In this document: in pieces, positions 12,504 through 63,100 of the stretch | Layout of the letters: each line of letters starts with the position of its first letter | Position numbering within the stretch: the first letter of the stretch is position 1 | Assembly (NCBI GenBank): GCA_947179485.1 | Contig: OX359245.1 | Coordinates: forward strand, 37,125,067-37,189,066 | Direction of reading: 5' to 3' | DNA length: 64,000 nt | From: Allacma fusca | Lineage: Eukaryota; Arthropoda; Collembola; Symphypleona; Sminthuridae | Translations under genes and position numbers: made by a program | Notes under the pieces: model-generated | Told to the model about the DNA's origin: nothing | The model's input: the letters and a program-made list of their open reading frames with translations, nothing else | Database searches by the model: none

Positions 12504-12684
12504 ATGAAACTCACTTGGTTGGTATTGGCCTTTATGGCTATAATTGTGCACGTAACATTTGGAGAAACGGCTCCAAGACGGATCCAATCACCTCGGGTCA
12601 AACGAGAGAGCATCCGCCATGCTTCAAGTTCCACTGCATTCGACCGCAGCCTTTCAGGATTTCAAACGCCCGGATCTCAACAAG
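12504..12684 (+). CDS. Gene A exon 1: signal peptide and pro-region
   Basis: It encodes 60 residues plus one base, with the same 181-nt length and GTACAA donor as exon 1 of genes B and C. The first 20 residues are almost identical in all three genes. A dibasic site (RVKR) follows in A, B and C. Beyond it the sequence is Ser/Thr/His-rich and more variable, ending in SQQ or SQP plus the split glycine or alanine codon. The pattern is that of a secreted precursor cut after RVKR, which is inference. Confidence 0.88.
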
Positions 12685-26596: not shown

Positions 26597-26602
26597 AATA
26601 AA
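26597..26602 (+). terminator. Poly(A) signal of gene A
   Basis: AATAAA lies about 320 bases after the stop, followed within about 40 bases by a GT-rich CTGTGTTTGCTGG. The same arrangement occurs after gene B, where AATAAA is at 52915-52920. Coding-to-signal distance and order are conserved. Confidence 0.7.
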
Positions 26603-30020: not shown

Positions 30021-30176
30021 TCAACGTACAAATTATTATTATTATTATTATTCGACTTTATTCAGTGTCAAAGGAGTCAATATAAGATATTGGTTTTCAC
30101 CCCAGACACAAAGTATCAATTCCATAAAAGAGGTTACAGTCATATTAGGGAAGGCCTGGTTATTAATGAAACAAAT

Positions 30177-31868: not shown

Positions 31869-31873
31869 TTTAT

Positions 31874-33160: not shown

Positions 33161-33386
33161 TAATTTGTCTATAAGCTGGTAAACTTAAATTCAAACATTT
33201 CCTATGGTACTTGTTAGAACAGATTGCACAACGAAGAGTAAGTACTAGATTTCTAAGCTTAAGCTTACACATAGCACATGATTCACTATTTTTAGCCATA
33301 TTATATAAAAAGCCGTAGTGGGCAGTCACAAGATCAGCAAGCGTCCAGAGATTTATAATGCAGACCGGTGAGTTGAAAAGATCCAA
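33123..33386 (-). pseudogene. LINE N-terminal PHD-like zinc finger
   Basis: The frame carries CAMC, CAIC and HRKC in PHD-like spacing, followed by LWHC just before the frame breaks. The rest of the finger continues in the endonuclease frame near 33140, so a frameshift splits the domain. PHD fingers at this place are known in some CR1-type and related elements. Confidence 0.6.
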
Positions 33387-33560
33387 CGATGCTACAGATG
33401 GACCTTTAGCAAAGGTCGTGACTTAAAGGGCGTCAGGATACCCAGCAGCAGTACAGCTGGAATAACCAAAGTTATTCGTGGCTTTAAGGCAGCCAGGAAC
33501 CTGAACGCAGGACAGTAGACAAGACAAACCACACTGCTCTGCAGTCAGTGTGAGAGTGAA

Positions 33561-36766: not shown

Positions 36767-39700
36767 ATGAAACTCACTTGGCTTGTATTGGCCTGCATGG
36801 CTATAATTGTGCACGTAACATTTGGAGAAATGACTCCAAGACTGGTCCAATCACCTCGGGTTAAACGAAAGAGCATCCGCTATGATTCAACTCCCACTGC
36901 ATTCGATCGCAGCCAATCAGGACTTCAAACGCTGGCATCTCAACCAGGTACAATTTGTTTTTTGTATTAGTACGAGAATTTATAACATTCAATTAGGCAA
37001 CTCCCCCGGGCATTCATTTCGAGACTTTTTTTTACATTTTTCTAGTACGGGTTATAATAGTTTAAGTTTCACCTCAGCAGAGTAAATGAATTAGAAAGCA
37101 AATTCTCAATACAAGTTCATAAGAAAGAGTCTTTTAACGTGAAATTACTCCCTCTCACTGTATTCATTTACGCAGTGCATAGGAAACTGATAATGAGGGA
37201 TAATTATTTAACACGAAAATGATCCGCCCGTTTCAATTACATGGGTTGTATGTACATACTGTTTACTTATTTTTGTTCTTGTATCACAGTGCCCCATTTC
37301 AAAAGCAATTTATTCTATGTGTTCCCGTCTATCTGTACAAATGTATTTGAGTTCCTTGTAAAGGTGAGTAGGGCTTGTAAAATGATAAGCAGGATATATA
37401 AATACTAGGAAATTTTTCAATAATTGAATGCTGATTAATAATCTTAGTTCCAGGTTATAATAATTTTACAAGTTTAGTTTAGTTAGCTGACAACATCAGG
37501 AGAAAATGTAGCAACTTCGTGGGCTTGTCCTTGTCTCAGAGTGCCCCAATTTAAAATTCCACTTTTGAGTGAATGAAAAGTTGTATTTCTAGAAAATTTA
37601 TTTTTACTGTGTGCATATGCACATGTGTAATACTGTAATCATCTGGTGCTGTACAGCAGTATTAATAACATTTTCATGTCTAGAAATAGTTATTTTTCTT
37701 TTTTCTAAACAGCTCGATATGTTCGTGGGGCCAGTCCCGATCCGTTGGGTAAGTTTATATTTTTAATCATTCATTGTTGTAACACATTAACATCTACTTA
37801 TTTTTAAAACGCTTTAAACATTTAAGATAGTCATAAGTAAGCTTGTGTTAATTCAGTACATCCCACACTGTGCTCTCGATATGAATGTTCTGTTCAGAAA
37901 CAGAGCTTCCATAAATATGCGGATATGGACTTTTAATCACTGTATGTTTAAACTCTTAATGAAATTTTTTTGTTCTTATATTCACGCGTAATTACTAGAT
38001 TCGGTTAGTTTTGACTTGGACAGAAAAGCAGGAATTGCAGGATTGCACTCTCCTTTTGTAAAGTTTAGCTGGCATTGTCTTTATGTATGTAAAGCAACTC
38101 GGTCATTCAGTTCCCTATTCTGCTTTGCATATGAATGCTTTAGAAAAGGTTCTCTTGAAACAGTCCTCACCACGGCTCTATGAGTCCTCACTTTAAATAT
38201 TTCCTTCCAATTTTTCCTTTCTATTCGTTCCCCATGACCCCTACAATTTTAAAACAAATGCTTATCAGAACGTAAGGAATTTTTGGCGTCCGAGATTTGA
38301 GATTTGTCGCTAGTAATTTGCATATGAAAATGTGTTTTGTTAGTAGAAATGATTAAACGCAGTTTAGACTATTTCCCAACATCGAATCATTTTTGTTTAA
38401 CTACTCTCTGATTGTTTGTAGGATTTGGATTGAATTTAATATTCAAAGGTCGTACTGATTGTGAGGCCTTGCTGTGACGATTATGCTTTGCTGAATTTTT
38501 ACTTTCTATTCGTTCTCCATGACCCCTGCACTATATTGTTGTTGTAGTAGCTGTTTTCTAATAATTTACCATTTCGTCCGAGATTTGAGATATGACGGTA
38601 GTAATTTACATGTGAAAAGGTATTTTGCAAGAAGAGACGATTCAACGCTAGTTAGACTATTTCCCAACTTGAAGTCATTTAAGTATAACAACTGTCTGAC
38701 GGTTAGCAGGATTTGAATTGAATTTAATAATAATTAAAGGTCATACTGAACGTAAGGCATTGGTTTGACGATTATGCTTACCTATGCATGTTTCTATGTA
38801 CATTCAATGTATTCAAATTCAAAAAATCATTTTTGGTATCTGATGATAAATCTGCTCATTTCCCTCCCCCCCCCCGATATAATCGCAGTCCATTGAAAAA
38901 TGCATTTTTTCAGGGTTTCTTTACTTACGGCAATACAGTTTTTAGAAGCACATATGTATGGAGCTGTCTTTGCAATAGTGTAATTATTTTTAATTAATTG
39001 TAAGCTTTCGAGTTTGGAATTACTGGAGAAAGTTTCATTTATTTTGTTGATATTATTTGTAGAATAGTTCCACCTCTTTTCGCTTTGACTGTCGGTAAGT
39101 GTTTTTATATACAAGTTTTACACCCGTAGTTGTAATTAATCTTGAATCTGTTTTCTTATCAATGTACCGCTTTGTGATTATCCTGGTAATTTCTTACTCA
39201 CTGGGCTCAAACGTTGTACATGTACATGTATATTGCCACTATAGTTCGGATTTGAATTTCTTTCCCCCTCATTTTGTCAATGTTTTTTCGTCACAAAGAA
39301 CTTCATTTTCCCAACGATCTAATTAATTAAATTAAGCTTTCAAATTGCCTACAGACTATTTGCAGTCAACTAGAAAAATTATACAAGCGTGAAATTAGAC
39401 AGAGAGGTGATGCCAAACCCTCCATCTTTTATGCAAATGTCTCTGTATTGTGATTTCACACAGTAGCTTTAAATAAATCGATTCTTTTTATCATTTTTAT
39501 TCTGTCCCAAATATGAACCCATATTTTGCCCAGAAACATTCTGGATCTTGATATCCATTGATTGGATCCTATCCAAACTTACTTGAAGATTTTTGATAAC
39601 AGCAGAATGTTAGTCATTTTATTTCAATGTGTTGTTGTCCCAGGTTGATTATGAGGAGTAGATAATGCAATCTCTACAGTCCAGTTTCATTTGAAATACT

Positions 39701-42700
39701 CATTTTTGTGAACATTTCAAACCCTCCCCTGACAAAAGAGAAATTCGAATAAATAGCTTCTGTAGCAATTATCAGAACTGTTTAAACAATAATTATGTAA
39801 ATACTAAAGAAAAAGTTATGGATTTATTTTTTGGACAGAATTAATTTCCAGGATTATCTTATCTGTCACATGGGTATGAGAGTGTAATATTTATGTAATT
39901 ATGTATGTACATATGTATCTATGGTGTCTATATAAGTACCAATATATTTTTTTATTTTCCAAGAAACATTTTCTGCTATGTTCAATATCATTCAAAGAAA
40001 CATTGTGAAATTCTTGATGAGTAAGCAAGACAGGTCAATAATCTTTACCTAAATAAAAGCTCAGCCCTTCAGATTGATTCGATAGCCGATAGATTTTTTT
40101 TTAAAACAGGCTATATTTTCTTTAAAATCAACCTTAAAATATTTACTCAATATATTTATTTAACTTTACTGCTACTTACTTTATTTCAGATCCTGTGACC
40201 AACCCAAATAATGGTGATAATGTGGGTAAGTAAGTATTTGAATGGCATTCAAATATTTTTATTTTCTTTCCCCACATTTTGAAAAAGATTGTCTTCCTAG
40301 TGAGTTTAAAATCGACAATACTAACAAATGCATAAAATGTCCCTTAAAACTCCAACTCCGTCCGGATTTGTCGGCGAATAAATTTATTAGCGTCCTCAGA
40401 GATCTTTACTTGACACTTTTGCTAGGGCTGAGCCATATAGCTGAACATATTCCATAACAAAATTTATTTATTTTTGGATGAATTTTTGTTTTTGCAAAAT
40501 TACTGATTTACCAGTGGGAGCTGTTAATGTAGGAATTATGCGTAGGCTTTTTTATTTCATTATATTTGTAAACAAACAGTGTTCAGCACTTTCCCTGGTA
40601 CTTTCAATATAATGAGAACTCTATGAAAGTCCAGCTCATTGAACACTCACAATTCAATAATCCCTCGAGGAACATTCGTAATATTGACGGATATAAACTT
40701 TTATGAAATCAATTTGAATTTAAAAATATTCTATTTAAATTGTGCCTATCGTTATATTCACATTACAATTTCAATGGAATTTCTAAGAATGGAAATCTTC
40801 CCAGGCGAGATGAGTTAAACTTAATTCAATCGTGCCATTAACAAATGTATTAAAATTAGAAAGCTTCAAATATTCCTTCAACTTGAGTGTCACTTACTTT
40901 TTGTTTTGCAGGAGATCCGTGCGGCATAATGGTTTCAGTAAGTACCAAATGACATTGATAGAACGTGGATGTTGAAGCCACCAGACCAGGCTTATCAATG
41001 AGTCATTTTGATTACGTTGTTTTTATTCATTTTAATTGTAAGGTTGGGAGCACTGAATTTACAATGTGTTGAAGAGATGTGATTTTGAAAATGGGGGTCA
41101 TTAATTTATTTCTCTGAGTTGTTAATAATTCCAAATAATTTCCGAATGAGTGAGATTGTCTTTCATCAGGTAGAAATTTTTTGGCTCAAAATAACTAACA
41201 AATCCTTGGAATCAAGAGAAGTAGTGGTTTTGATAAGGCTTTATTTTTTCAAATCAATTTAAGGATTTTGCCCATCTAAAATATTTTTTTCTATTTTGTT
41301 GATTAAGTTTGAAAATAAATAACAGAGTCTCAGGCAACTGGAAAATCTTTAACTTCTCTGTCACTTAAGAAATAGCATGACAATATCTCTAGAGTGTCCC
41401 AAATTTTCTCATTCAACAATTTCGGTGTTCAGATTGAAGTATAATTATTTAGTTCCAATTAGCCTTCAGAAATGTATTTTTACATTTTGTATAATGCATT
41501 ACATACCTGGCTACCTGTTGCTGTGAATATCATGTGATCAATTACAAAAATGCTGCTACTGTAATTGAACATGACAATTTAATTACTCTTCTAATCTAAC
41601 GATTAACTGTTAAGATTGTCCCGAGAGCCAATGAATTTGAATTATTTTCAGTGCTCCATTCTGTATGCATTTACGTCAGGGTTTGGTCCCTTATTAAAAT
41701 GTAAAATTTTCAGTCGTGACAGTTGCTCGACAAAATTAAGCCAACCGTATTTTTAACAAATGTATTTAGCTATTTAACTGTATTCATGTAACATTATTAC
41801 CACGTACCTTGTTTTTACAGGTGACTTGAGTGCAGTTCAAGATAGTAAGTACAAACTCTTTGAAATGCTGACTTATAATTATACACGAATAGTTATTTGT
41901 ATTTTTTTCCGACAATTTTTCAAAAATATGCTTCCATTGAGCTTATATTAATTAGATGCATAAATAAGCACTCACGATAGATTGAACTCAACTTTTCTAT
42001 AATAATATTCGATTTGACTGATTGGGTATTGAGCTAATTATTTATTTATGGTAAATGATATATTGCTGTTAAAAATTTGAAAGTCCTGTCTTGCGGGGGA
42101 AAATATTCTTTTTGTGCTCTAAATCTATTTTTTCATTAAATGTTTTCAGCAAGTTACTCATTCAAAAATAATTTTAAAATCTGAATACATTTATTTAATT
42201 TTAACTCCAAGTAATTATCTAAATTTATTTTACAGGGGTCATGCAGGATTTAAAGAACAGATTTCTTGCTGGTAAGACACAAGATGTTGCTTTATGATGT
42301 ATGTACAAGATCAGCATATTATTACACTGACTCGACTTCTCAGCAGGGGTTACATTTATATTTATTCTATCCTTTGTATATTTTAATACTCAAGTTTCAT
42401 GTACTGAAGCCAATTTATTCATTTAAATTTAAAGCCACTTACATTATTTTTCCCGACTTATTCTCTGTTTGTATTACTTTTCTGATTGACATGCAAGCAA
42501 ATTTTTTTTTATTTTTCCTAATAAATTACACATTCCATTCTCTATTTTGCATCACATATTTTGTAGCTAGATTATTAGGATTTTTTCCCATCATGACAGT
42601 TACTTGAATGTCTTAAGTCAATCCTATTCTTAAGGAATCTATTTAAGTGTCCATTAATTGAGTTAACTTTACCGCCACCTACATATTTTGTTTTTCCAGG

Positions 42701-45700
42701 ACAAACCTTCGAAGACGCATACTGGGGTAAGACTAATTTTGATACTATTAAGAACAAACGTTGATTTTTTCTAAAATTCAGTTCGTATACTAATTTATTC
42801 CAATACTTCAAATGCAACACAATCAAGATATTATGTTCTAAATTTTAAAATAAAACATTTCCATCAAATTTCCTTCCTTTAAATTTTCCAGCTTTTGCTT
42901 TTGAGAATTTCCAGCAAATTTTGTGACCCCAGTCAACGGTTAGCTGGTAGCAAAACTTTGATTAATATCCACAAAGCAGTTTCTTACGAACGTGGAGAAC
43001 GAGAAATTCAATTTATTTTCTGAGAAATCTCTTAGATTTTTCAGTCCCAAGTATTGATAAATTAATTACTTTAATTTATTTTATTTCACTCCATGGAATT
43101 TGTATGATGTACTTGTGGAAATTTTAGCACTAATGATATATTCAAGTAAATTTTTTGCTAATATTGTTCGATTGGGTGGACGAAGGGGAGATTGGATTTT
43201 CTCAATGTAATATTAGCTTGAAATTTTCTATTTAAAATAATTATTAGTTTTAACTTAAGATATTACAGAGTAATAATTATTCATTGAACTGTAATGCCAC
43301 TTACCTTTTTTTCGCAGACTTGCTCACTTCATTTGGCAATATCACGGGTTGTAAGTATTCAACATATATTGTTAAGACTAAGTATTATGGTAAGGCTGGT
43401 TGAAATTCCTCATGTTTGGTCATGTGTATTGCTTATTTATTTTAATATCAACATTTAAAGGACTAAGTCTGTACAACTAGAATATTTTTCTTCCCTCTGG
43501 ATATTCATATTCCAGGATTCGCAGAATTCCCCATGAGTAGTTGCCTTGTAGTAATTATGTTGGGTGTTTATTTTCCGAGTATTAAAATTTGCCAAACTTT
43601 TCTTCGTACTTTGAGTATCTTTCTGGAAAGCGTAAAAAATAAATGTGAACACAATTTACGTCTGGAACGTAACTATCCATCTGGAAGAGCTTAGTTTAAG
43701 ACTCTACGTTGAGTTTTTTTATGGAGTAATTATATTTCTTTTGTTTTTTTTAGTACTTTACACTTTTCAGCTTTGAATAATTAATTTAATTGTATTTTAA
43801 ACTTTAATTTCTAATATCCATTATCCATATTATTCAAGAAGCTCACGCTCAGAAGTTATGTAGTCAACTGTCCTAATGAATTCCACAGTGAAATAAATTG
43901 ATTAAGCGTAATGACAGTGGAGCTTTTAAAGGATAAGAATATTCTCAAAAGCGATATTCTTAACTGATGTAGTTGTTTATTTAATTTTATTTATTTGACT
44001 TTAATACCACTTATCTTGTTTTTACAGGTGACTTCAATGACAATGAAGTTGGTGAGTACTTATAAACTTATTTAACATTCTACGTATGAAAGTACGTACA
44101 CTGAAAGTTCCAGTGCTGACTTACTATTACATGAGCAGTCATTTTTATTCTGCTGTTTATATTTTTAGCCAGCAATTGTCATTGGTAATATTTATGTCAA
44201 TTCCTCGTTTGCAATATAAAGAGGAGATTCATGAATCAATTGAGTCTATTGAACAAAAAATAGATATTGTTTGAAATCCGGACAACTAAAATTTAATCTT
44301 CAGCAACGTTTCCTGGATTTCTCACAGTTTTGATTATAAAATGGCAATCAGGGCCGCATTTTGGGGTAAAACATTTTTATGGACAATACTTTTTTATTAA
44401 TTATGACTGCCTATTTTGAATGATATTCTAGTAATTTTTTAATAATAATATTTTTAAAATTAGCTTCCATTAAACTTGTATCAATTACATTAGAGACTTA
44501 AATAATCACTCATGATTATTTCCACTCAACGTCTCTTCAGTAATGTTCAATTGGAATGATTAGGAATTGAGTTAATTATTTATTTATGTTAAATGATGCA
44601 TTGCTGTTAAAAATGTGAAAGTTCCTACATCCGGAGGGAAGAATTCTGTTGTGCTCTAAACTAAACCTAGTTATCAATAAATGTGTTCAAGAATTTACTC
44701 ATCTAAAAATAATTTTACGTTTCAATAACTTGTGAGGGAAATATTCTGCAATGTTCTAAACATATTTTGTCATTAAATGTTTTCAACAAATTACCCATCC
44801 AAAAATAATTTTAGCAATTCAATAAATAACGTTAACACCATCTCCTTTTTTTTGCAGCTACCCTTCACGCAATGTATGACGTATTCAAATCAAGTGAGTG
44901 ATTAAATGTTGATTTACAATGCACAACTCCGATATATTATTACACTTAATTACTCAACTTCTCAGCAGGGGTTGTATTTTTTATATTTATTCTATAGTTT
45001 GTATATTTTAATACTCAAGTTTATTGCACTGAAGTTAATTTCTTCATTTAAATTTAAAGTAATTACTTACATTGTTTTCCTTGGATCTGTTTGTTCTAGA
45101 ATTATTCTGAGTGTCATGAAAGCCAATTGATTTTTTGTATTTTCCTCCAAAATCACACTTTTCATTCTCTATTTTGCAACACATTTGTAGTCAGATTAAT
45201 AGGAATTTTTTAAATCATGACAGTTATACTCCAATGTCTGAATAAGTCAGTCCTATTCTTAATGGATCCATCCAGGCGACCATAAATTGGATCAGCTTTA
45301 ATATCACTTATTTTCTTTTTACAGGAAGTATGACAAACCCAAGTCTTGATGGTAAGACAATTTTTGACCCTGTTAGGAATACAATTTCCAGTGATAATTT
45401 ACTGCCGTTTGTATTCTGTGGTTGATTTTTCCAAATTTACATAAATTACTGAATTTATCGAAACACTTCAAATACAATATAATGGAGATACTGTATTCCG
45501 TTCTAAATTTTAAAAATAATTATATTTACATCATTTTTCCTTCACAGTAATTAACTCTAAACTTCTCCAGATTATTAATTTTGAGATTTCTCACAATTTT
45601 GTGACCCCAATCCAATGTTAGTCTGTAGGGAAAACCTTGATTCATCAAGAAAGTAGCAAAGCAATTTGTTTCAAATCTGGTCAACAAAAAATTCAATTTT

Positions 45701-48700
45701 CTGAAAGAGAGTCTTCAGTTCTTCTGAGATTTTTCAGTCTTTAGTATATTGATAAAATTGCTTTCATTTATTTTACTACATGTCATAGAATTTGTACGAT
45801 GAACTTGCGCAAATAAGCACTATAGTGATAAATTCAACTCCATTTTATATCATCATTCATTATATAAAGCTTAAACCCTTTGAATTTTTTTTAAAGTTTA
45901 ATAGAACACTTTGAAAGCAAAGATTAGATTTCTCAAAGTAATATTAGCTTGTAATTTCCCATTTAAAATAATTACGTTTAACTTTTCAATGTACAGTATT
46001 CATTGAAATATAATGCCACTTACTTTGTTTTCACAGCTTTATTAGCTTTATCATCAGCCAGCGTTCCTGGTAAGCATTGAACAGACATTATTGAGACTAA
46101 CCAAGTAACAAGATAACGCTGGCTCAAGTTCTTCATCTTTGGTCATGTGTAATCCGGATTCACTTTAGCAAAACATTTTGTTTCATATTAAGAAAAAAAC
46201 AGCTCAATGAAATCTCTTGAGTAATTATTTTCAAATAGAACGACACTATGCTTTTAATTAGCTTCTAGTAGTTTGTAGAGCTCAGAGCAACGACTGAACT
46301 ATAGTTAAACAAATTGCATGAAGAATTGTCTACTATGTAGTTGTTCATTCAAGAAATATTCATGTTGCAGGATTAGCAGATTTCTTCATGAGTAATTAGT
46401 TACCTTGTAGTAATTATGTTGGGCGTTTATTTTATCAGAGTAATTATTAAAGTTTGTCAAACTTTTTTTACGTGCTTTTAACATCTCTCGGAAATCGTAA
46501 AAAATTATCAGGTCCCCTTGTGACTACTCACATCACAATTGCAACCAAACTAATGAGATTATTTTCTCACCTTCAAAGCTTCACAGGAGACTTGAGTCAA
46601 TTGCGTTGTTGGAAAATTTTTAACGAGCCAATACATTTATATAATTTTAATTTGCCACTTATTTAATTTTTTTGCAGGAAGAACAGTGCCAGTAGATGAA
46701 AAAGGTAATTTAAAGTTGAACTTTGTTGTGTGAACGGACCCTTGTTATTTATTCATTATTTTATGTTTTTGATTTCCAGTGGCGTGTGTGGACCGCACAG
46801 AAGGCCGTAAGTGTTTCCTTACAATTTGTTGATTTTTAATGATAATAATTAGGGCATTACAGAAATTTTGTAGTAAATAAACCTCAACAGGGTTCTAGCC
46901 TTTACGCACGCTCTTTGTAGATTTTTCGATCGCTATGGGCTCGAAATCTCAATGAGGAATCTGTCAAGTGGAATTTCCTCAATTTCACAATTTGAAACCG
47001 CAATGTGTATAAGTATAGTCAATTTAGATATAGCCAGACCAATTAATTTTTTTTTCGTTTCCAAACCCGGAACTTAATTTAATTTGAAAGTACTTTTGAT
47101 ATTCTTTTTCCAATACTTAAGTCTAAGTCATTGTAGATTTTCAATTTCTCGGAATGTTTCAATGTGACTATTTGTAACTAACAATTTTTTTTTCATGTTG
47201 ACTTCATACATTGGACTGGACAGAAATCTGTACAACATCTGGTGAGTTGCCACATTCAATATACTACATATTAATAATTATTGATATGTCTCGCCTGTAG
47301 ATTATATTTATAAGGAAAGCAAGTATGATGGAGGAAAATAGTACAAGAATTTATAGCTCTTAAAATTTCGCCTGATTAGAAATTCCCATGTCAAGCTCTC
47401 CAGTAATTAATAATTATTAGTAATCCATTATTATTAATTTTATCCAACTTCATGTGTCCCGTTAAAAACCGTCTAATTTGATGCAATTCAATCCCTGGAG
47501 TTCATAGAGAAAATTCTCGTCACAACGACACCTTTTTGTAACCCTACTCTCATTATACCGGACACATTTGTCCATCCCTACCAGAATTTTCTAACCAATT
47601 TATTCAATTAACTTTAATGCCACTTACCTGGATTTGCAGACGGAATCGTAGTGCCGCAGGCTTACTTGGGTAAGTGTTTGATTAACATTATTTGGAATGA
47701 CGTTATCACGCTGACTTGGATTTCCAGAGGGTTGTGTTGACTCTGTCGTTTGCTTTATATTATTTAGATTTACCTGATACTTTTGCTCACAATCAGCAAA
47801 ATGTAGGATAAATCAAACACAGGAATGAAAATGTTTTTAAATAACTCGTTTTTATGGAAACAGTCCTTAATGTGGTACGAGCAGCTACCGTTGGACATTT
47901 GTCAAGTCAAGAAAACAAACACAATTTTATATTTCTGAAAAGAAAGTTAAAACTCAAAATAGTTTTAATGCAATTTATGAAAAATCCCTTCGTAAAAATT
48001 AACATCAAAAATATTTGACTCTAAAGTAAAGACTTTAATTTACATAAATTTTGCAATACAAAATTTAGACTTTGGATTAATCATGACAAGTGATTTTTAG
48101 TCATTCAAAGTTTGATACTGCTAAACTGTCCATTGTCAATATTTGGATTTAGAGTCTTAAAAAATTGCAATATTAGAGAAATTACTCATTTCAAAACAGG
48201 GATGACTTTTATTTAGACTTTGTGGTTTGTTCACAATCATTGGAAAAGCTTTGTATAAAGTAATTTGAGTTAATAATTTATTTGTTTTGCAGTTTGTGGA
48301 CCAGTCAATGGAGTAGGTAAGATCTTTTATGATTTTTTGATTTTTTAAGAGTTACTTAAACGTTTATTCGTTAATACGAGTTATTCATACTGGAATTAGG
48401 CAGGTCAGATTGTACTATTTATTCCGTACCTTTTGATGTTCAGTCTTGGACTCTTCTCTATAAATAATGACTGTGTTTGCCCCAATGGCAAATTTTAGAT
48501 GAGGAAATGCACGAGCAATGAAAATGAAAAAAAAAACTACAAAATTAATTTTTCACTTACACTTGCAATAACAACCAGATTGATTTGTTTTAAAATTATT
48601 TCATATTTTTGTCCCACACATTTTGTATAGCAGTTATATTCCTTTACAACGGTCTTATTTATTATTGATTCTATTGGGAATTCTTGAGCAAAGCTAATTA

Positions 48701-51700
48701 TTTGCAACTATTACATTTTATTTCCATGTTGATCTGATACGCTGGACGATGCAGAAACTTGCACAGTCACAAGTAAGATTTTCAATTCATTTTCTAGTTG
48801 AATTTAAATTGGAATTTGAGAACAAATACACGTCTATAAAAAATAATGATAAAATCTCTATAACAAAACTGTCCATATAATTTGCTTCGTGGGTAATTTG
48901 AAATAATTTATGATGTCACGTATATACTTGTGACTTGGAAGTTCTTGATTTTATTTTCTAATGAGTTTGCGGGCAAATAATATGGAAAGATAATTCTTCA
49001 AATTTGTTTATAAATTGCCCTAAGAAATACTCTGTCTGGCCCATGACTCAAGATTTTTGAATTAAAAAAGTTGAGCACTTTTTATTCATTATCCTGTAAT
49101 TTGATTCAAAGGAAGGTAATAAATAATTTCACGGGATAAGTTTCTTGGTCAACACAAATGGCAAGCTTATAATTGATCCTCTGTGTATAAAACCCTGTTG
49201 GGAATTTTATATGTGACAGTACTATTGTTATGATATTTGTCATCTTGACAGCTCCTCGACTTACAATTAGCTTAATTGTATTACTAACATTCATAATTAG
49301 AAATCAATAAATTCATTTAACTCTAATGCCACTTCTTTGCTTTCACAGGAGCATACACACCTGGACCCTTGCGTAAGTAAAAGATGTTGTTAACACAACA
49401 CTAAAATGTCCTAAAGCCAGCATTACTTCCTATCGATCATTTTAATTCGGATGTTCATTTATTTCAATTATTGTAAACTTGCAAGGGCTGAATTTATCCC
49501 AGTATTATTTCCTATTAGTTTATAAACTGTAGGTGGAATGAATCTGTCGGAAATATTTAATACTAAAATATTCAGGTTCTTTTGGTAGTAATTTCCTTCC
49601 AATTCTGGAACATTGAAAATATCAAAATATGCTCTATTCGACAATTAGTGCGTATGAAACTTTTCTAAACCTTTGGTTAGAACGAATTAATAGTCGTGCT
49701 CAATAATAAAGATTATCATAATAATGCTAAATAATTAATTATTAAACTTTACTATGAAATAAGCAAGGTCAGGTGTGAAATTCAATATTCTCATAGTTTC
49801 CCATGAATTTTCAACATCTTACTGTTGTATGTGGAAACATTGAAAGGAATATACATATATTTATGAATTATATTTTTTTTTTCATGAAGCCGTTTTGGAA
49901 AGACAGTACTTTGGATCTTTTCATGATTTTGATTATTCCTTTCGCCAGTAAAAATGTCTTAGAGCATTATCTGAGCATTACAAAAATGCTGCTACTGCAT
50001 GTGGATATGACAATTAAATTACTCCTCGAATCTAACGATTAATTATTGAGATTGTTTCGAGAGGCAAATCAATTTGAATTATTTTCAATGTTCCAATCTG
50101 TACATTCACGAAAAGGGTTTTGACCCATATTAAAATCAAAACTTTCCAGCCGTGACAGTCGCTCGACAAGCTTAAGTCAATTCTATTCTTAACAAATGTA
50201 TTTGGTTATTTAATTTTATTTGTTTGACTTTAATACCGCTTAACTTATTTTTTCAGGCGGAATGACTGATCCAGAATTTAGTAAGTACAAGCTTATTTAG
50301 TATTGTAATTACTGAACGTTCAAATGCTAACTAACTATGACACGAATAGTCATTTTTATTCTGCTGTTGATATTTTTAATTGGCAATTGTCATTGGTTAC
50401 GATATAATGTCAATATAATGAAGATATTTTAAATAATTTTCTGTTACTTAACCACTATAATAACCTCAGATTCATATTTTTCTAAACGTAATCTTTCTAC
50501 TTCCCTAATTAAATATTACTCATTATATTCAAAAATATGAGCAAAAGAATTAGTTTGTAACCAGGGCAAAGTAAACAAAGTAACAGGCAAAGTCAAATTA
50601 AATATTCAGCAAAGTTTCCTAATTTCTCCCTGCGTTGATTACAGAATGACAATAAGGGTCGTATTTAGGGCTAAAACATTTTTATGGACAATAATTTTTT
50701 TATGATTGCCTATTTTCAATCAGATTATAGTAATTTGTTAGGGATAATCTAAAAAGAAAACGCTTCCATTTAGCTTGTATTAATTACACTAGAGGCTTAA
50801 ATAAACACTCAAGATAGTTTCGATTCAACGTTTTTTCAATAATGTTCAATTGGATTGATTCAGAATTGAGTTATTTATTTATTTATATTAAATAATGTTG
50901 CTGTTACCAATTTGAAAGTTCCTACATCCGGAGGGAAGAATTCTGTGGTGCTCTAAACTAAACCTAGTTATCAATAAATGTGTTCAAGAATTTACCCATC
51001 TAAAAATAATTTTTACGTTTCAATGATTTGATTTAACTTTCACGCCACAAATCTTTTTTACAGATGTTCTCAATTGGGGTGCTTATATAATGAGAGAAGG
51101 TAAGATCGCAAGTGTTGCTTTACGATATACAACTGCAGCATATTATTATACTGACTCAGCTTCTCTGCTAGGGTTATGTTTATATTAGTATTTATACATT
51201 TTAATACTAAAATTTACAGTGTTTAAAGTCAATTTATTCACTTAAATTTAAAGCAACTTATTAGTACATTGTATTTACTGGAAGGTTTATCTGTTTGTTC
51301 TAGCATTCTGGTTGCCTTGAAAGTCTGTTGATTTTGTAAATTCTCCTCTTAAATTAAACATACCATTCTCTATTTTGTAATACAACTGTAGCCAGCATAG
51401 TATGAATTTGTTTCCGTCATGGCATTGCTCGTCGAATGTCTTAAGCCAAACCTATTCTTAACAGATCTAAGTAGGCGTCTGTAAATTGAAATAACTTTAA
51501 CGCCAATTATTTTGTTTTCACAGATCTCCTTAGTGCTGAGCAGATCAAAGGTATGCAAATTTTTTACATGTTAAAGAATAAACGTTCCAGTAATAATTTA
51601 TTTTAACTACCATTTGTATCTGTATTCCGCGGTTGATTTTTTTCATCGTTAAATTCAAACACTGAAATTACCCCAATACATCAAATACATTATATTGAGA

Positions 51701-52596
51701 TTTTTCAGTGTCTAATAATTATTGTTGATAAAATTACTTTAATTTATTTTATTTCATTCCATATAATTTTTATGTTGTGCTTGCACAAACAAGCCGTATT
51801 GACAGAGTCAGTTTAATTCTTCGCCAATATTTTTGAAATGGGTGGACGGGAATTTGAGCTAAATGGAGCTTGTATAGTTGATAGTATTGTAGTTGTACTC
51901 CGTTAAGAGTAAATTGTTCCGCTCTTGTTCGATTAGATTCACAGGGAATGGAGCTGATGGTCAGGTATTGGAGATCGTCATATCAAAGTTGTTAAATCTT
52001 TGAAAAAATTGTACATTTCCAACTTAAAATGGTTTTAACTTTTCAATACACACTTTTCATTTAATTATAATGACTTTGTTTTTACAGCTGTGCTGGATCA
52101 AGAGATAACAAGAGCACAGACTCGTAAGTATTCAAGAGACAATATTAACACTAGCAATAAGTAACATGATCACGCTGACTCAATCTCCTCGTGTTTGGTC
52201 GTGTGTATTGCTCATTAATTTTAATACCTACATGTAAAGAGCTAAGTTTATAACCTGAATCTTATTTAAAAATAAAAATCAATTTAAAGATTCATGTTAC
52301 TGTTCTTACCTTTCACCACTAAAACATCAGTTTTTTTCTGCTAATTTCCCAGCGAATTTTGGTTACAGGATAGAATAAAATTGTCAAACAGAATTGGTAA
52401 CTGCCATTCCGGTTAATTTTAAAAGTGTATTAAAATTGTAATTATTGAAATTCTAGCTAATCGGAGACGTCGACGAACTGAGCCATTCTCAGGAGGAAGG
52501 TCCCGAACGCCCTCTGGCTTTAGACGTCAACCAATCAAAAGATCAGCAGGTCCTCATAACCTCCCAGGCCAAGGACGAGCCCTTCAAAGAAAATAA
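36767..52596 (+). CDS. Gene B: secreted, phase-1 microexon protein (25 exons, about 316 aa)
   Basis: Exons: 36767-36947, 37713-37748, 39068-39094, 40190-40225, 40912-40937, 41821-41844, 42236-42271, 42700-42726, 43318-43350, 44028-44051, 44858-44893, 45325-45351, 46037-46069, 46678-46704, 46780-46806, 47224-47241, 47640-47669, 48293-48316, 48755-48772, 49349-49372, 50257-50280, 51064-51099, 51524-51550, 52088-52123, 52457-52596. All but the fifth are phase 1 to phase 1. Exon 5 has 26 nt; including it shifts the frame to a stop in exon 6, while skipping it keeps the frame open to TAA (316 aa). Signal peptide and RVKR match gene A. Three four-exon cassettes (exons 6-9, 10-13, 21-24) and two cysteine cassettes (15-17, 18-20) follow, then the shared Arg-rich end, 3 residues longer than in A. 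It may be functional through skipping, or newly broken, or the window may have a base error. Function unknown. Confidence 0.8.
40912..40937 (+). pseudogene. Gene B exon 5, 26 nt, frame-breaking
   Basis: Positionally and by sequence it equals the 27-nt exon 5 of genes A (17241-17267) and C (58516-58542), keeping the Cys codon and a CGGCAT core in common with C. Acceptor TTTTGCAG and donor GTAAGT are intact. It is one base short of a multiple of three, so inclusion gives an early stop in the next exon. The conserved intron start (GTACCAAATGACATTGATAG after the first bases) confirms homology. Confidence 0.75.
41821..43350 (+). repeat. Gene B four-exon cassette 1
   Basis: Exons of 24, 36, 27 and 33 nt encode GDLSAVQD, RVMQDLKNRFLA, GQTFEDAYW and DLLTSFGNITG. 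Exon sizes and intron sequences correspond to the gene A cassette; the peptide sequence is quite different apart from the DL start. Confidence 0.78.
44028..46069 (+). repeat. Gene B four-exon cassette 2
   Basis: Exons of 24, 36, 27 and 33 nt encode CDFNDNEV, ATLHAMYDVFKS, RSMTNPSLD and ALLALSSASVP. The first residue is a cysteine created across the splice junction (T plus GT). The introns resemble those of cassettes 1 and 3. The intron before it also matches the intron before the gene A cassette (GAAGCTCACGCTCAGAAG at 43841 and 17834). Confidence 0.78.
46780..49372 (+). repeat. Gene B paired cysteine cassettes
   Basis: Two three-exon sets, 46780-46806/47224-47241/47640-47669 and 48293-48316/48755-48772/49349-49372, encode VACVDRTEG, QICTTS, DGIVVPQAYL, then VCGPVNGV, ETCTVT, RAYTPGPL. 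The Cys positions agree with genes A and C while most other residues do not. The 18-nt exons follow very similar acceptor regions (CATGTTGA.....TACG/ATTGGAC), confirming duplication of the set. Confidence 0.76.
49970..52360 (+). repeat. Gene B four-exon cassette 3, block almost copied from gene A
   Basis: Exons 50257-50280, 51064-51099, 51524-51550 and 52088-52123 encode RGMTDPEF, NVLNWGAYIMRE, DLLSAEQIK and AVLDQEITRAQT. From about 49970 to 52360 the introns align with gene A 18245-20835 at roughly nine bases in ten by eye. At the right end the match stops after TTTCTGCTAATT[TC]CCCAGCGA and the sequence changes directly to the last intron (TTTTGGTTACAGGATAGA). This looks like a 2.4-kb block placed into B by unequal exchange or gene conversion. 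Exon sequences inside the block are far more diverged than the introns. Confidence 0.78.
52457..52596 (+). CDS. Gene B terminal exon, Arg-rich C-terminus
   Basis: Starts P-NRRRRRTE and continues SGGRSRTPSG, RRQPIKRSAG and NLPGQGRAL, then QRK before TAA. It is nearly the same as gene A; a substitution in the gene A stop context explains the three extra residues. The downstream UTR is also nearly identical to that of gene A. Confidence 0.85.
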
Positions 52597-55708: not shown

Positions 55709-58700
55709 ATGAAACTCACTTGGCTAGTATTGACCTTCATGGCTATACTTGTGCACGTAACATTTGGAGAAATTAACCCAAGAATAATTAAATCCCTTCG
55801 GGTCAAACGAGAGAGCAGTGAACATGTTTCAAGTCCCACTGTAATCGACCACAGCCATTCGGGATTTGAATCGCTGGGATCTCAACCAGGTACAATTTTT
55901 TTTTCATATTAGTTCGAGAATTTGTAACTTACAATTAGGCAACTCCCACGGGCATTCATTTAGAGGTTGTTTTCTTTTACATTATTTCTAGACCGGGTTA
56001 CAATAGTTGAAGTTTTTGAAGGGTTGAAGGGAAGTTGAAGGGTAAATGATTTAGAAAGAAAATTCTCAATACAAGTTCATAAGACAGTTTTTGTTTAAAG
56101 CGAATTTACTCCTTCCCACTATATCCATCTAAGCAATGCGTAGGAAACTGATAATGATAATGAGTGGTAGTTTTTTTGAGACGAAAATGATCTGTCTGTT
56201 ACACTTGCTTGAGTTATATAAACTGTTTGCTTATTTTTGTATTTGTATCATATTGTCCCATTTCAAAAGGAATTTAGTGTTTGTGTTCCTGTCTACATAT
56301 GTACAAATATGTGACTAACTGGGGCTATTGTAAAGGGAATGTAGAAATATTAGGAATGTTTACACTATTTTAATTCGGATGTTATAATATTGCATCTTTT
56401 TAGCTACCTGATTGACAATATCAGTAGAAAATGTAATAATTCGTGGCATATTTTGCACTTGTTTCACAGTGCCCCAATTTAATTTTCCTTTCTGCGTGAG
56501 GGAAGTTTATTTCCAAATATTTTACTTTAATATACTAAGACATGATAATCATCCGGAGCTGTTCAGCAGCTTTAGTTCATTTTCATGTAAAGTATTAATC
56601 ACTTTTCTATTTTCTTTCCAGCTCGATATGCTCGTAGGGCAAGGTCAAATCCGTGGAGTAAGTTTGTACTTTTGATACATTAACATCTTATTTTTAAAAC
56701 GATTTAAACATTTAAGATATTCATACGTAGAATTATGTTAATTCAGTATGCATGTGCTCTCTAAAACTGTGCTTTCGATATAAATGTTCTATTCAGAAAG
56801 AGAACGTCTATAAAGTTGCGGATATGGGCTTTTAATCACTGTATGTTTAGACTCTTCAATGATATTTTTTATCCTGATATTCAAGCATAATTACTAGATT
56901 GGGTTAGTTTTGACTTGGACAGAAAAGCAGCAATTGCAAGATTGCACTCACCTTGGGTGTAGCTTTTAACTGTGAGTATCTGTAAATAATTATATGCAAA
57001 GCACCTCGGTCATTGAGTTCCCTATTATCCATTTTCTGCTTTGCATATAAATGCTTTAGAAAAGGTTATCTTAAAACGGTTCTTACCCAAACGGCTCTGA
57101 GTCCTCACTTTAATTATTTACTTCCAATTTTTACTTTTACATTTGGATTGAATTTAATATTCAAACGTCGTACTGATTGCGAGGCCTTGGTTTGACAATA
57201 ATGCTTATGCATATGTACATGAGTGCATAGGTGCAAATACGTTGTGATGTAATACTGCCTTTGCATGTCATGCTGACGAGTACATCGTCACATGTGTGAT
57301 TTCTAATGTGTGATTCCTTAATTTTGAAATATAATGTGTCAAGGGTGATGTTTAAACTTTAGAAATTGTATCAAAATACTCAAATTCAAAAAAATATTTT
57401 CAGTATTTGCTGCTAAATCTGCTGATTTCCGCTCCCCACCCCGATTTAATCGCAGTCCAATGAAAAACGCAATTTTCCTGGGTTTCTTTACTTACGGCAA
57501 TACAGTTTTTACAAGAACATACATGTGTAGCTGTCTTTGCAACAGTCTATTTTTAGTTAATTTTACGCTGTAGAGGTTAGAATTATTGGAAAAAAATTTC
57601 ATTTATTTACTTATTTGATATTTTATTTTATAGATCTAGCTTCAATTTCTTTGAGATTGGGTAAGTGTTTTTCATACAAGTTTTACAATCGTAGTTGTAA
57701 TTAAGCCTGAATCTCTTTTCTTATAAATATACCGCTTTTTTATATTTTTCTACTAATTTATTGCTCACCAGGCTCAAATGTTGTACATTTTAGTAGAGCT
57801 CAAGGAATGCCTTGGTTTTTGATACTGGTTTACTGCCTTGGTTTTCTAATAGCTTTTATAGCAATTTTCAAAACTGTTTAAATAATTGAGTAAATACTAC
57901 AGGAAGAATAATTATTGATTTATTTCTGATTAATAATTATTTTCCTGGATTATCTGATCTACCACCTGGAGATGAGATTGTTCTATTTATGTAGAATGTA
58001 CCTATGGCGTCTATTTAAAAACATATTTTTTAATTTTTACACGACAAATTTTCTGCTGTGTCCAATGTCATTCAAGCATTATGAAATTGTTGCTGCGTGA
58101 GCAAGACAGTTCAGTAATCTTTACGTAGACAAGCGCTCAACCCTTCAGATTTTCTCGACAGGCGATCGACTTTAAAAAAAACAAACTATTTTCTTTAAAG
58201 GAACTTTTCCTTAAAATAGTTAGCTAATACATTTGTTTAACTTTAATGCTACTTACTTTATTTTAGGCCCTTCGGAAGCTGACACTCCCGTGAGTAAGTA
58301 TTTACTGATGACATTTACATAATTTTATTTTCTTTCCGAACAGTTCGTAATATGTTATCTTACTAGTGAGTGATCACAATTGCAACGGAATTCCTGATTG
58401 AAAAACTTCCCATGCAACAGTTAAACTCAAATTAACCGTGTCCCTAATAGATGTAATTATTAGAATGTTTAAATTATTCCTGTAACTTAAATGTCACTTA
58501 TTTATTTTTTTGCAGCGGACACGTGTGGCATTGATGGTTTACGTAAGTACCAAATGACATTGATAGGAGATGGGTTTTGAAGTCACCGGACCAGGATTAT
58601 CAATGAGTCATTTTGATTACGTTGTTTATTCATTTTAATTGTAAGGTTGGGAGCACTGAACTTAACTCAATTTTCCCTTCACAATGTATTGGAGAGAGGT

Positions 58701-60054
58701 GATTGTTACAATGGAGGTACTTAATTTATTGAATTGATTATAATAATAATTCTTTGAATTTTCAATTACTGTATTATAACTGTAACTGTAATTAATTACT
58801 GTACGTCGATATGACAATAAAGTTACTCCTCGAATCTAACAATTATCCTTTAAGATTGTCACGAGAGCCAAATAAATTTGAATTATTTTCGGTGTCCCAA
58901 TCTGTACATTCACAAAAAGGGTTTGGACCCATAAAAAATTAAAACTTTCCAGTGGTGACAGTCGCTCGACAAACTTAAGTCAATCGTATTCTTAGCAGAT
59001 GTATTTGGTTAATTAATTTTATTTAATTGACTTTCCAATTACCTTGTTTTTACAGGTGACTTGACTGATGAGCAAAAATGTGAGTGTAAACCTCGTTATC
59101 ATTCTAAACACTGAATGCTCAAATGCTAACTTACTATTACACGAATACAGGGGTCGGATTTTTATAAATCTCCCTGTAAGATTTTTTTTATTTTCCCTGC
59201 TGGTCATGATGTCCCTGTTCGAAGCAAGTTTAAAACTCCCTGTTGACAAAATAATTTTCGTAACACACCCCAACAAATTTAAAAATCCCTGCTGAAAAAA
59301 GGTCAACAAATCACTTCAACAATGTCGAAAATCCCTGTTGAGAAAAATCATTTTCAGTAAAACACCTCAACGATTTCAAAAATCCCTGCTGAAAAACTTA
59401 TTTTCCGTAAAACACCTCAACAATTTCGAAAATCCCTGCCAAAAAAAGGGTCAACAGATTTTAAAATCCCTGTTTGCAATTCCGTTTGAAAATTTCCCTG
59501 CTGAAAAATTGTTTTCCCTGGGAAGATTCTTCCCGTCTTCCTACATAAATCCGACCCCTGCACGAATACTAATTTTTTTTATTCTGATTTGGATTTTTTT
59601 TATTGTAATTATCATTTGTTAAATTGATGTCAATACCCAATACAATATAATGAGGAGATTCTGTACTTGTTGCAATTCCCTGCTTCTGAACGACAATAAT
59701 AGCCTTTGGCTGGTTCATATTTTTCCATTTATAATTTTTCCTACTTATTATTTCCGAATTAAATATTAATCAATTTCCGCAAAACAAATTAATTTGTTTG
59801 AAATCCGGGCAACGTAAAATTTAATTTTGAGCAAAGTTTCCGGAATTGCTCACAGTGTTGAATATAGATGGCAATAAGAGTCTTTTGTTTGTAATAAAAC
59901 ATTTTCATCAACAATACTTTTTTATGATGCTTCCATTACGCTTGTATTAATTACATGCTTAAATAAGCACTCATGACAGTTTCGACTCAACTTTTCTACA
60001 ATAATGTTCAATTGGATTGATTAGGAATTGAGTTAATTATTTATGTGTATTGTA

Positions 60055-60106
<52 letters not shown>

Positions 60107-63100
60107 GGGTGGATTAATAAACTAATTTTTACCCTGGCCCTAACCCCCAAAATACATTTGTGGGCCTTTGCATGTGCATGCATGTAATCTGAGGGCCTTA
60201 GTCAATTTTTTTTTACCCTGGCCCTAATTTTTTTTACCCTGGCCGGGCCAGGGTGGGCCACCCCGTAAATCCACCCCTGTATATATATATATATAATTAT
60301 ACAAAGCTGTTAAAAATTGAAGGTTCTGGCTTGCGCAGGAAACTATTCTGTTGTAAACTGATTTTATCATTAAATGTTTTGAAAAAGTCACTCTTTTAAA
60401 AATAATTGCAATATTTCAATAAATTCACTTAGTTTCAGCGACACTTATACTTTGTTTTTGCAGCTGCCGTGGTGACTTATATAGCACTGTTTAAAAATGG
60501 TACGCTACTAAATAAGTATTGTTTTACAAATTACAACTCAACTTCTCAACAGGGGTTGTATTTATATTTTTATTCTACTGCTAATATATTTAAATACTCA
60601 AGTTTATTGCACTGACGTTATTTATTCATTTAAATTTAAACCCACATACATTATTTTAACCCCATGTGCTTAACTGTTGTATTGAGGCGCCCATAAATTT
60701 AATTAACTTTGACGCCACTTTTTTTCTCTTTACAGAACAGTACTCCAAAGCGCAGGATTTTGAAAGTAAGAAAATTTTTGTCATTTTGAGTATTAAGTGC
60801 TCCAGAACTAATTAATTTAAACGCAATTTGTTAGCTGTCGTCGATTTTTTCCGTCGTTAAATTCACGCAATGAATTTACCCCAATACTTTAAATACAATA
60901 TAATGGAGATATTCTGTTTTAAATTTTAAAATGAAAACATTTACATCACCTGTCCGTCACAATAACAGCTTTTCAATGCACAATATCCATGGAACTGTAA
61001 TGCAAATTACTTTGTTTTTACAGCATTGAAAGCAGCCTTTATTCCACAAACGACTAGTAAGTTCCAAGATTTTGAACTCGGTTTAAAGTCCATGGGATTT
61101 TTATTTTTCAATTTAATTTACTCGCTCCTCTCCTCCTGTGACTGCTGACAACACAATTGCAACAAGACTAATGAGAATATTTTCCCATCGTCACAGCTCC
61201 TTAGGAAACTTGAGTCAACTGCTTTGCTAAAACATTTATAAACGAGCTAATAAATTGAATCAATTTTAATGCCTTTTATTTTATTTTCCCAGGTTTCCGA
61301 ATTCTTGCCAACTCGCCAGGTAATTAACAGAACGATTTTCCTTGGATTAAATGTTCTCATATAGAATTTCCATCTTTATGAGTCATTTTGATTATTATTC
61401 CTTTAATTTAGCCCTAAACTTCCCTGTAATGAATTGAACTGAAAACATTATAGAATAATTCAACATTGAAGTTCTTTTTATAATAAATTCCTTAAAATAT
61501 CCTTAACCCAGTAATTGTACCCTGCGGGAAATTGCATTTCCTCAGGATTTGTACTGTATCCAGGCGCGTAGCCAAGGGGGGGGGCAAGGGGGGCAATTGC
61601 CCCCCCCCCCATTCGAAATAAAATACTCTCAAATCACTCAAAAAGTTAAAAATAAATCAGTCCATACCGAGATATGCAAACCTTTTAGTGATTTGACAGT
61701 ACAATTTTTTTATTTGTAAAAAAAATCACTTCGAAACTCAACATATGCAGTATTCGATGTAAATATCTGTGTATAAACAGCATAACTCTAGAATCACCCA
61801 TGCAATTTGCATGTTTCGTGTGAATGATTTATTACCCACGGCTCCTCCCGTCATTAATTGACCCATCCATACGCGCGAAAATCGTATCGCAATGTTTGTC
61901 CATTGCGAGAGCAAAGGATTTCTAGATCAATAAATTTCTATGGAAAAGCATTTCGATACGATTTTCGCGAGTATGGATGGGTCAACTTTTGACGGGAAGA
62001 AGCCGTGGGTTATAAACCATTCAATAAAGAGACGTTTTGGGTGATTCTAGAGTATATTTTTATTGTGTTCATCCTTGCTTAGCGGGTGATTTGAATGCAT
62101 TGCGAAATCACGATTTCACTTTGACCTTTGCCTCGTCGATTTGACTTCAACCTTCAACGGCAACAAAAGTATGGTAACAGCGGCTTTAAATATTTTCATA
62201 TTAAAAGCTTTTAGCTTCTGTAACTTACACGCATCGCTTCGAGGGAATTTTTAAGCTGGATAGAATTATTAAATTAGTGAATTGTATTTAATTCTTCATT
62301 ATGAAAAGGTCAAGCACGCCTGATATCCGCAGTTTCTTTTCGAAGCAAAGACGTGTGTCACAGGAACAGTAGGTTAAGCACCAGCTGAAACGATAGAAGC
62401 GAACCCAGGTCTCAAAATTCTCCGAAATCTGATCAAGCCCAATTAAAAATCTGGTCCAAAATTATTAAAATTTGATGGAATCGTAAAACGTGGAGAATTT
62501 TAAAATCTGAAATTCAGTTTGCAAAATTTGATGCGTTTTACATTCGTGAATTGGATTTCCCATAGAATGTGTCAGTTTACATATGTACGTTCTAATTAAT
62601 GTTGCCCCCCCCCCTTGGCCAATTCCTGGCTACGCGCCTGACTGTATCCACCTGTAAAGCTATTGTGTTTTCCTTGTATGGGTGTTTAATTTTTGTGGAA
62701 AGACTTATTTGATTTATTTATTTATTTATGGTTTTGATTTCCAGCCACATGTCGGACCACCGAAGCTAAGCGTAAGATTTTGTCTACAATTTGTTGATTT
62801 TTAATGATAATAGGGAAATATCATTTTCGTACTTTTTAACTTTTCGTCCTCAATCTCTGATACATTTTTTCCCCCACAATTCAATCTATGTAAGTCATTG
62901 TAGATTTTGGCAATGTTTCAATGTAATTATTTATAACTAAGATTTTTTTTTCATGTTGACTTGATACATTGTACTGAGCAGGAGTCTGTACAGCACGTGG
63001 TGAGTTGTTACGTCAATATACTGCATAATAATAATAATTTATGATATGACTCTCCTGTAGACATTATTTATGAGAAAAAAAGGAATGATGGCGGAAAATA

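Follow-up and report, generated by a model that had tools for sequence, protein, structure and literature searches.

How can the introns of two neighboring genes stay alike while the exons between them lose all resemblance? This question is raised by a 64,000-base stretch of chromosome 1 of the springtail Allacma fusca (C1:37125067-37189066; hereafter, the window). The window lies in an array of related micro-exon genes, at least eight in tandem, which spans about 240 kb and codes for probably secreted proteins. A first-pass annotation had noted by eye that gene A and gene B align through their introns, with scrambled exons in between, and had attributed this to intense diversifying selection on the mature peptide or to an exon-targeted diversification process. 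We found that the contrast is real for three exons out of four. The pattern probably reflects diversifying selection on a fold-constrained, probably secreted protein, acting together with recombination that renews the introns and spares the exons.

The border of divergence between genes A and B lies at the splice sites

We aligned positions 18245-20832 of gene A with positions 49970-52360 of gene B. Both tracts are real, and each is an internal four-exon cassette of a larger gene. We refer to the two cassettes as A and B3:

18228..20832, + strand: gene A cassette, with exons 18529-18552, 19347-19382, 19796-19822 and 20584-20619 plus introns
49958..52359, + strand: gene B cassette B3 (the reported tract), with exons 50257-50280, 51064-51099, 51524-51550 and 52088-52123

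The introns are 88.8% identical over 2190 aligned columns, in agreement with the “roughly 90%” estimated by eye. In fixed slots, the exons are identical at 9/24 bases (exon 1), 11/36 (exon 2), 3/27 (exon 3), and 26/36 (exon 4). The counts for exons 2 and 3 (51064-51099 against 19347-19382 and 51524-51550 against 19796-19822) are exactly those first reported, while exons 1 and 4 had been omitted. Shuffling places exons 1 to 3 at chance level (probability of an equal or better shuffle 0.138, 0.432, and 0.974, respectively), whereas exon 4 is clearly related, since none of 2000 shuffles matches or beats its identity. The fourth exon is thus not scrambled, and exon divergence exceeds intron divergence in exons 1 to 3.

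Low identity is confined almost entirely to exons. In sliding windows of 24 columns (n = 1991, windows with more than two gap columns being left out), all 26 with an identity of at most 45% overlap an exon by at least six columns. At a threshold of 50%, 44 of the 50 windows overlap an exon, and the other six begin around 19400, next to an indel on the 3' side of exon 2. Within 240 bases of exons 1 to 3, the flanks are 82-100% identical in each of 16 distance bins (the lowest bin being 82% of 11 bases, at donor-side positions 3-6), and the splice sites of A and B3 fall on the same alignment columns. The pooled exons are identical at 26% of 87 bases, against 25.6% expected by chance from exon composition. 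Since the flanks stay similar right beside exons at chance level, the border of divergence coincides with the splice sites, where the first-pass annotation had placed it.

The cassettes belong to an array of micro-exon genes

The genes share a plan that consists of a signal-like first exon, many symmetric phase-1 exons of 12-54 bases carrying helix-like and Cys elements, and a basic last exon. We derived exon classes by comparing 284 kb around the window, using phase, open frame, and a length divisible by three as search criteria, so that the openness and phase of a single exon are no independent evidence. The comparison yielded 13 classes of symmetric phase-1 micro-exons, with 134 exons once overlaps were resolved; classes with a mean splice score below 6 and one nested 9-base class were left out. 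Open-frame models were built for genes A (681 bases, 14 exons), B (924 bases, 22 exons), E (903 bases, 24 exons), and G (900 bases, 23 exons). Their 12, 20, 22, and 21 internal exons, respectively, are all in phase 1, and each model keeps one frame from first to last exon. Genes E, F, G, and those with later letters lie beyond the window, and the window coordinates are continued past 64000 for them.

Eight first exons, all starting with MKLTW, were located in the array by a pattern search. Identical amino acids make up 977 of 1260 over 21 pairs of seven first exons (the eighth, with an extra codon, was left out) and 319 of 390 over 10 pairs of five last exons. For the first exon of gene D (position 71537, beyond the window), the filter that detected the usual phase-1 donor in the other seven did not detect it, so this copy may be altered or broken. 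A dispersed copy of the family lies on another chromosome, on the minus strand at C8:28385001-28405000, with 5' and 3' modules about 69-83% like those of the array; its last exon, which diverges past a shared start, may be degenerate.

Among 3516 candidates, the sole relative of the gene E model at E <= 1 is P0243, an unnamed partial protein of A. fusca. P0243 is the annotation of another family copy with the same exon layout, in which the end of one family gene appears, by eye, fused to the start of another. Its predicted structure has low confidence (mean predicted local distance difference test score, pLDDT, 45.6). Searches with models E and B brought up no Pfam family above its cut-off, and a search with model B gave no PDB chain at E <= 1.

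The four-exon cassette is repeated along the array. We placed 14 cassettes, 10 of them complete with all four exons, and excluded exon-4-like singles at 118798 and 173628 and a fragment at 143781. The exons are constrained in residue character: exon 1, a short cap, has a hydrophobic residue at position 3 and S, T, N, or G at position 4 in 11 of 11 peptides, and the amphipathic exon 2 is hydrophobic at positions 3, 6, 7, and 10 in 8, 9, 7, and 10 of 10 peptides, respectively (11 of 13 exon 1 and 10 of 13 exon 2 copies were used, close repeats being left out). None of 5000 shuffles is as clustered in its hydrophobic residues as exon 2.

Evidence for diversifying selection in part of the exons

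We compared exons within classes across the array. Of 664 possible pairs, 616 had enough aligned flank, and 226 of these were left out for unequal exon length, which leaves 390 pairs. Mean exon identity is 0.92, 0.68, 0.49, 0.42, and 0.39 across falling bands of flank identity (0.93-1, 0.87-0.93, 0.82-0.87, 0.77-0.82, and 0.70-0.77; n = 16, 51, 95, 161, and 67, respectively). Specifically, in the 15 pairs with flanks of 0.87-0.93 and an exon identity of 0.60-0.80, only 52 of 126 amino acids are kept, but codons for the same amino acid differ silently in 3/34 four-fold and 1/18 two-fold cases, which is about the intron level. Such a combination indicates positive selection with an ordinary silent clock. 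A single comparison, exon 97030 against exon 205337, gives 0.5/9.5 silent and 10.5/23.5 replacement differences between flanks of 0.91 identity.

Other exons of the same genes are conserved. The ARYV exon (ARYVRGARPDPL) is 0.94-1.00 identical between flanks of 0.87-0.99 in the nine pairs listed with flanks of at least 0.87; therefore, micro-exons as such are not unstable. Silent four-fold differences in conserved exons amount to 55/537 and 16/215. Altogether, the sequence comparisons support diversifying selection on the product, as the first-pass annotation had proposed, in part of the exons, but such selection does not easily explain the A-B3 pair by itself.

The latter limit is illustrated by simulations of A and B3 under a uniform omega on the intron clock (K = 0.11, 300 runs), in which the observed value to be matched is 14 identical third positions out of 37 over the four exons. 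With an omega of 10, codon positions 1 and 2 fit (P = 0.160), but about 27 of the 37 third positions are predicted to be identical, and none of the 300 runs gives the 14 observed. An omega of 20 is poor on both counts (P = 0.960 for positions 1 and 2, 0.007 for third positions), and an omega of 40 fits the third positions (P = 0.263) but over-scrambles positions 1 and 2 (P = 0.997). A uniform omega thus does not reproduce the codon-position pattern of the four exons at this K in the simulations.

These results bear on the first inference of the first-pass annotation, namely, that the whole pattern arose by point mutation under diversifying selection, against a neutral intron clock and with no recombination. 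Several exon classes do show many replacements while their silent sites keep pace with the introns, fold positions are kept, and exons 1 to 3 of A-B3 can be fitted when taken alone (see below). Nevertheless, we consider this account unlikely, because a uniform omega fails on all four A-B3 exons and because exon and intron likeness disagree for this pair, as described next.

Exon and intron likeness are decoupled

For B3, cassette A has the best intron flanks (89.7% identity; the next B3 pair, among the 40 pairs with the most similar flanks, has 82.3%), and it is the top match in 22 of 23 windows along B3. Over exons 1 to 3, the same cassette is the worst match of the seven comparable ones (A 23/87, H 24, B1 27, B2 29, C2 36, G2 38, and E2 40), and E2 matches B3 better than A does (sign test p 0.006, uncorrected). 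Exon 1 of A, identical to that of B3 at 9/24 bases, reaches 20/24 with E1 and G1 and 19-20/24 over E1, F1, and G1. Across four cassette-exon classes (n = 56, 76, 73, and 20), flank and exon identity are uncorrelated (p 0.16-0.71, pairs with an exon identity above 0.85 being left out).

The introns, in turn, are mosaic. Intron 1 of B2 holds an A/B3-like tract (about 44560-44760, + strand), and intron blocks are common to cassettes with unrelated exons. The cassettes G1 and G2 belong to one gene; upstream of their exon 1, seven 50-base bins are 88-100% identical and the last bin 82%. Exon 1 itself is identical at 6/24 bases, and downstream identity is 71-90%. Since mosaic introns are no clean clock, and since A has the closest introns and the worst exons for B3, the ratio of exon to intron rates probably overstates selection.

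In places, the sequence suggests that single exons were exchanged as blocks. Exon 14 of E and G differs in sequence and length (15 and 27 bases, respectively) and is surrounded by a halo of raised divergence of about 60 bases, beyond which the flanks are nearly identical (by eye); this looks like a small block exchange. Likewise, exon 4 of F1 matches that of E1 at 17/33 bases, yet 50 bases directly upstream are identical (by eye). Both cases are consistent with short conversion tracts from another paralogue, each bringing in a single exon with a few bases of flank. As the general explanation, such replacement appears quite improbable. The array offers no convincing donor for exons 2 and 3 of A, exons 1 and 2 of B3, or exon 4 of F1 (33-base exons were searched without shuffles). 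Exon 3 of B3 has one opposite-strand match at 219078, which at 20/27 is just above the best of 30 shuffles (19), and exon 4 of A and of B3 match only each other. In addition, divergence is not raised in the A-B3 flanks near exons 1 to 3.

A probable combination of selection with recombination that renews introns

Under the explanation that we favor, diversifying selection would act on residues exposed at the surface of the mature protein and leave its fold intact. Neighboring copies would also undergo unequal exchange and gene conversion, with most ends falling within the long introns; these events would renew the introns, and tracts overwriting an exon would be blocked by its heterology or removed by selection. 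With introns renewed and exons spared, exons would often predate the introns that surround them, and exons of different lineages could come to lie within a young intron pair like that of A and B3.

Several observations weigh against this combined explanation. Taken alone, exons 1 to 3 of A-B3 are fitted at both sets of codon positions by an omega near 80 at K = 0.11 (P 0.587 for positions 1 and 2, 0.263 for third positions), and with K set to 0.15 or 0.25 an omega of 40 also fits (P 0.083 and 0.323, respectively, for third positions); extreme selection alone could therefore account for these three exons. The sign tests pick the best of several candidates without correction, and cassette H is nearly as poor a match to the B3 exons as A. 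The 284 kb that we searched yielded no convincing donor for exons 2 and 3 of A or exons 1 to 3 of B3. Simple purging of conversion tracts predicts a gradient of identity in the flanks, though the A-B3 flanks show none towards exons 1 to 3, so that heterology blocking must be assumed.

Silent sites speak for the combined explanation, with reservations. In the 20 pairs with exon identity below 0.60 and flanks about 11% diverged, same-amino-acid codons differ silently in 16/20 four-fold and 7/13 two-fold cases. Some of these codons, however, may have returned to the same amino acid by chance, which would raise the silent counts, and the pairs are not independent. Moreover, choosing which pairs to exclude by their exon identity conditions the comparison on its own outcome. 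The youngest whole-gene pair, E-G, has a ratio of replacement to silent differences (pN/pS) of 0.62 over 17 equal-length variable exons, and this lack of a replacement excess disfavors constant acceleration. Its cassette exons are 95.1% and 88.3% identical and its introns 94.7% and 92.5%; two further exons (14 and 20) differ in length. Silent divergence in E-G is 12.5/114 in variable and 1/96 in conserved exons, a contrast that we set aside, since the flanks of conserved exons are also more alike in this pair.

Two further alternatives can be dealt with briefly. The scrambling of A-B3 is limited to exons and includes third codon positions, as an exon-targeted mutation or diversification machinery would produce, but such machinery is very improbable and not required, given the ordinary silent divergence of conserved exons in the same genes, the E-G exons that changed about as fast as introns, and the kept fold positions. 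That the exons are non-coding or non-homologous, or the copies assembly errors, is hardly credible even though the models were built from sequence alone with phase and open frame as search criteria, because four models keep one frame through first and last exons that were identified independently of those criteria, P0243 has the same layout, splice sites share alignment columns, and residue positions recur across unlike exons.

A shared intronic element and other features of the window

The 3' ends of introns ahead of different exon classes have an element in common, which is close to TTTAACTTTAATGCCACTTA and located just upstream of many micro-exons (for example, near positions 20560 and 24100). 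We counted 27 copies of the 8-mer AATGCCAC in the array. Of the 134 exons, 23, in 5 of the 13 classes, have it 10-45 bases upstream, against an expectation of 0.36. The shared element may act in splicing, or it may be left over from the duplication by which the micro-exons multiplied. In a broader and, in our judgment, distinctly unlikely scenario, the array would be an exon library fed by recombination: the likeness of the long introns would be maintained because it lets neighbors exchange cassettes, exon and intron ancestries would separate, and the shared intronic element would serve splicing and perhaps exchange.

The remaining parts of the genes in the window are as follows:

12504..12684, + strand: gene A exon 1, with ATG, signal-like N-terminus MKLTWLVLAFMAIIVHVTFG (secretion judged by eye) and basic PRVKR stretch, ending in phase 1
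13412..13444, + strand: gene A micro-exon of the conserved ARYV class (the internal control); this 33-base copy is not among the nine compared pairs
16491..17267, + strand: gene A micro-exons 16491-16544 and 17241-17267 (the second Cys-bearing)
21392..24148, + strand: gene A micro-exons 21392-21415, 21755-21784 (Cys), 22508-22537, 23064-23087 (Cys) and 24125-24148
26144..26274, + strand: gene A last exon, basic C-terminus with RRRR and KR, stop
36767..40225, + strand: gene B 5' part, with exon 1 at 36767-36947, then 37713-37748, 39059-39094 and 40190-40225
41376..43640, + strand: gene B cassette B1, with exons 41821-41844, 42236-42271, 42700-42726 and 43318-43350
43662..46505, + strand: gene B cassette B2, with exons 44028-44051, 44858-44893, 45325-45351 and 46037-46069
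46678..49372, + strand: gene B micro-exons 46678-46704, 46780-46806 (Cys), 47640-47669, 48293-48316 (Cys) and 49349-49372
52457..52596, + strand: gene B last exon
55709..63586, + strand: gene C, part within the window, with exon 1 from 55709, then 56622-56657, 57634-57660, 58267-58293 and 58516-58542; not joined into a model
59056-59079, 60464-60499, 60736-60765 and 61024-61056, + strand: exons of gene C cassette C1
61293-61319, 62745-62771, 63319-63351 and 63557-63586, + strand: gene C exons after C1; the gene continues past 64000

Several repeats accompany these genes. A retroelement of the long interspersed nuclear element (LINE) type lies between genes A and B on the minus strand (30177-33422). 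Its reverse transcriptase and endonuclease score over the Pfam cut-offs, a PHD/C1-like stretch falls slightly short of its own, and these domains lie in separate, overlapping frames; two of three organism-named relatives, among the matches listed, are from the springtail Orchesella dallaii. The stretch 28324-30035 is a partial duplicate of the 3' end of gene A and its downstream flank (25313-27588 side), and a 45-base piece at 29020-29064 derives from just downstream of the last exon of gene A. Gene C carries an inverted repeat in an intron (61785-62053; arms 61843-61903 and 61940-62000, 87% complementary) and a minisatellite in intron 1 of cassette C1 (59225-59447; 4.6 copies of a unit of about 50 bases). 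Elsewhere in the assembly, four near full-length COX1 copies lie outside the mitochondrial contig (C12:58139742, C12:57617062, C5:4638854, and C8:22971501). TGA is the only stop in them, and they would be either recent nuclear copies of mitochondrial DNA or assembly pieces.

Comparison with known systems and significance

In the Hessian fly genes for small secreted salivary gland proteins (SSSGP; Chen et al. 2010; PMC2955719), which are arranged in tandem, the promoter, signal-peptide region, introns, and untranslated regions are conserved and the mature coding region is diversified. The authors proposed positive selection together with concerted homogenization of the noncoding parts. The springtail array is likewise tandem, with conserved noncoding sequence, a conserved signal-peptide exon, and diversified mature coding sequence, and the explanation that we favor invokes the same two forces. 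The differences are that the host is not a gall midge and that single micro-exons differ within long shared introns, whereas whole mature regions differ in SSSGP genes; most SSSGP groups have one intron, and 35 introns are given for the SSSGP-2 group (PMC2955719).

In gene structure, the array resembles the bicycle genes of aphids and scale insects (Stern and Han 2022; PMC9168663). The internal exons of these genes are numerous and small and, in nearly all cases, begin at codon position 2; many of the genes carry signal sequences and evolve fast. Here, too, micro-exons are many and internal exons are modeled as starting at codon position 2, phase being a search criterion. The bicycle gene-structure classifier (cut-off 0.72, coefficients from PMC9168663) scores A at 0.983, B at 0.9998, E at 1.0000, and G at 0.9999; it was trained on aphid genes and run on predicted models, so these values express structural likeness, not homology. 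Non-aphid bicycle homologues have no obvious CYC motif (PMC9168663), and in the springtail one exon class has a C-Y-C order with Tyr in 4 of 11 peptides (by eye, in that class only). We rejected membership among the bicycle genes, as the host is a springtail, with a mitochondrial COX1 93% identical to a Sminthuridae record, not an aphid, phylloxerid, or scale insect, and the likeness is one of gene structure only.

Schistosome micro-exon genes (MEGs) have most of their coding sequence in very small symmetric exons and encode secreted or gland-associated products, and the mature part of three of them has a ratio of replacement to silent substitution rates (dN/dS) above 1 (PMC4350168, PMC10526429). 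Very small symmetric exons also form most of the springtail coding region, symmetry being a search criterion. Among relatives of the gene E model at E <= 1, no sequence relation to bicycle genes or schistosome MEGs was found, and MEG membership was rejected, the springtail not being a flatworm.

A further likeness is to accelerated segment switch in exons to alter targeting (ASSET) in viperid three-finger toxins (Doley et al. 2008; PMC2474615), where segments of introns are alike and some exon segments are switched to unrelated sequence with the fold kept. The snake genes have three exons with part-exon segments, unlike the springtail array, in which whole micro-exons differ and the protein has no known family. 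The check for a three-finger fold gave no Pfam family over cut-off (E and B), no PDB chain (B), and one low-confidence structure model.

Among the papers listed by literature searches on springtail micro-exon or fast-evolving secreted families, none was on a family of this type. The pattern has precedents, and what the springtail array joins is micro-exon genes, hypervariable and probably secreted peptides, and shared introns. For families of this kind, intron-scaled rates can overstate selection when recombination renews the introns. How noncoding sequence stays alike beside diverging coding sequence is the question left open for the Hessian fly genes, and with 14 cassettes in one array, the springtail family allows a direct test of it.

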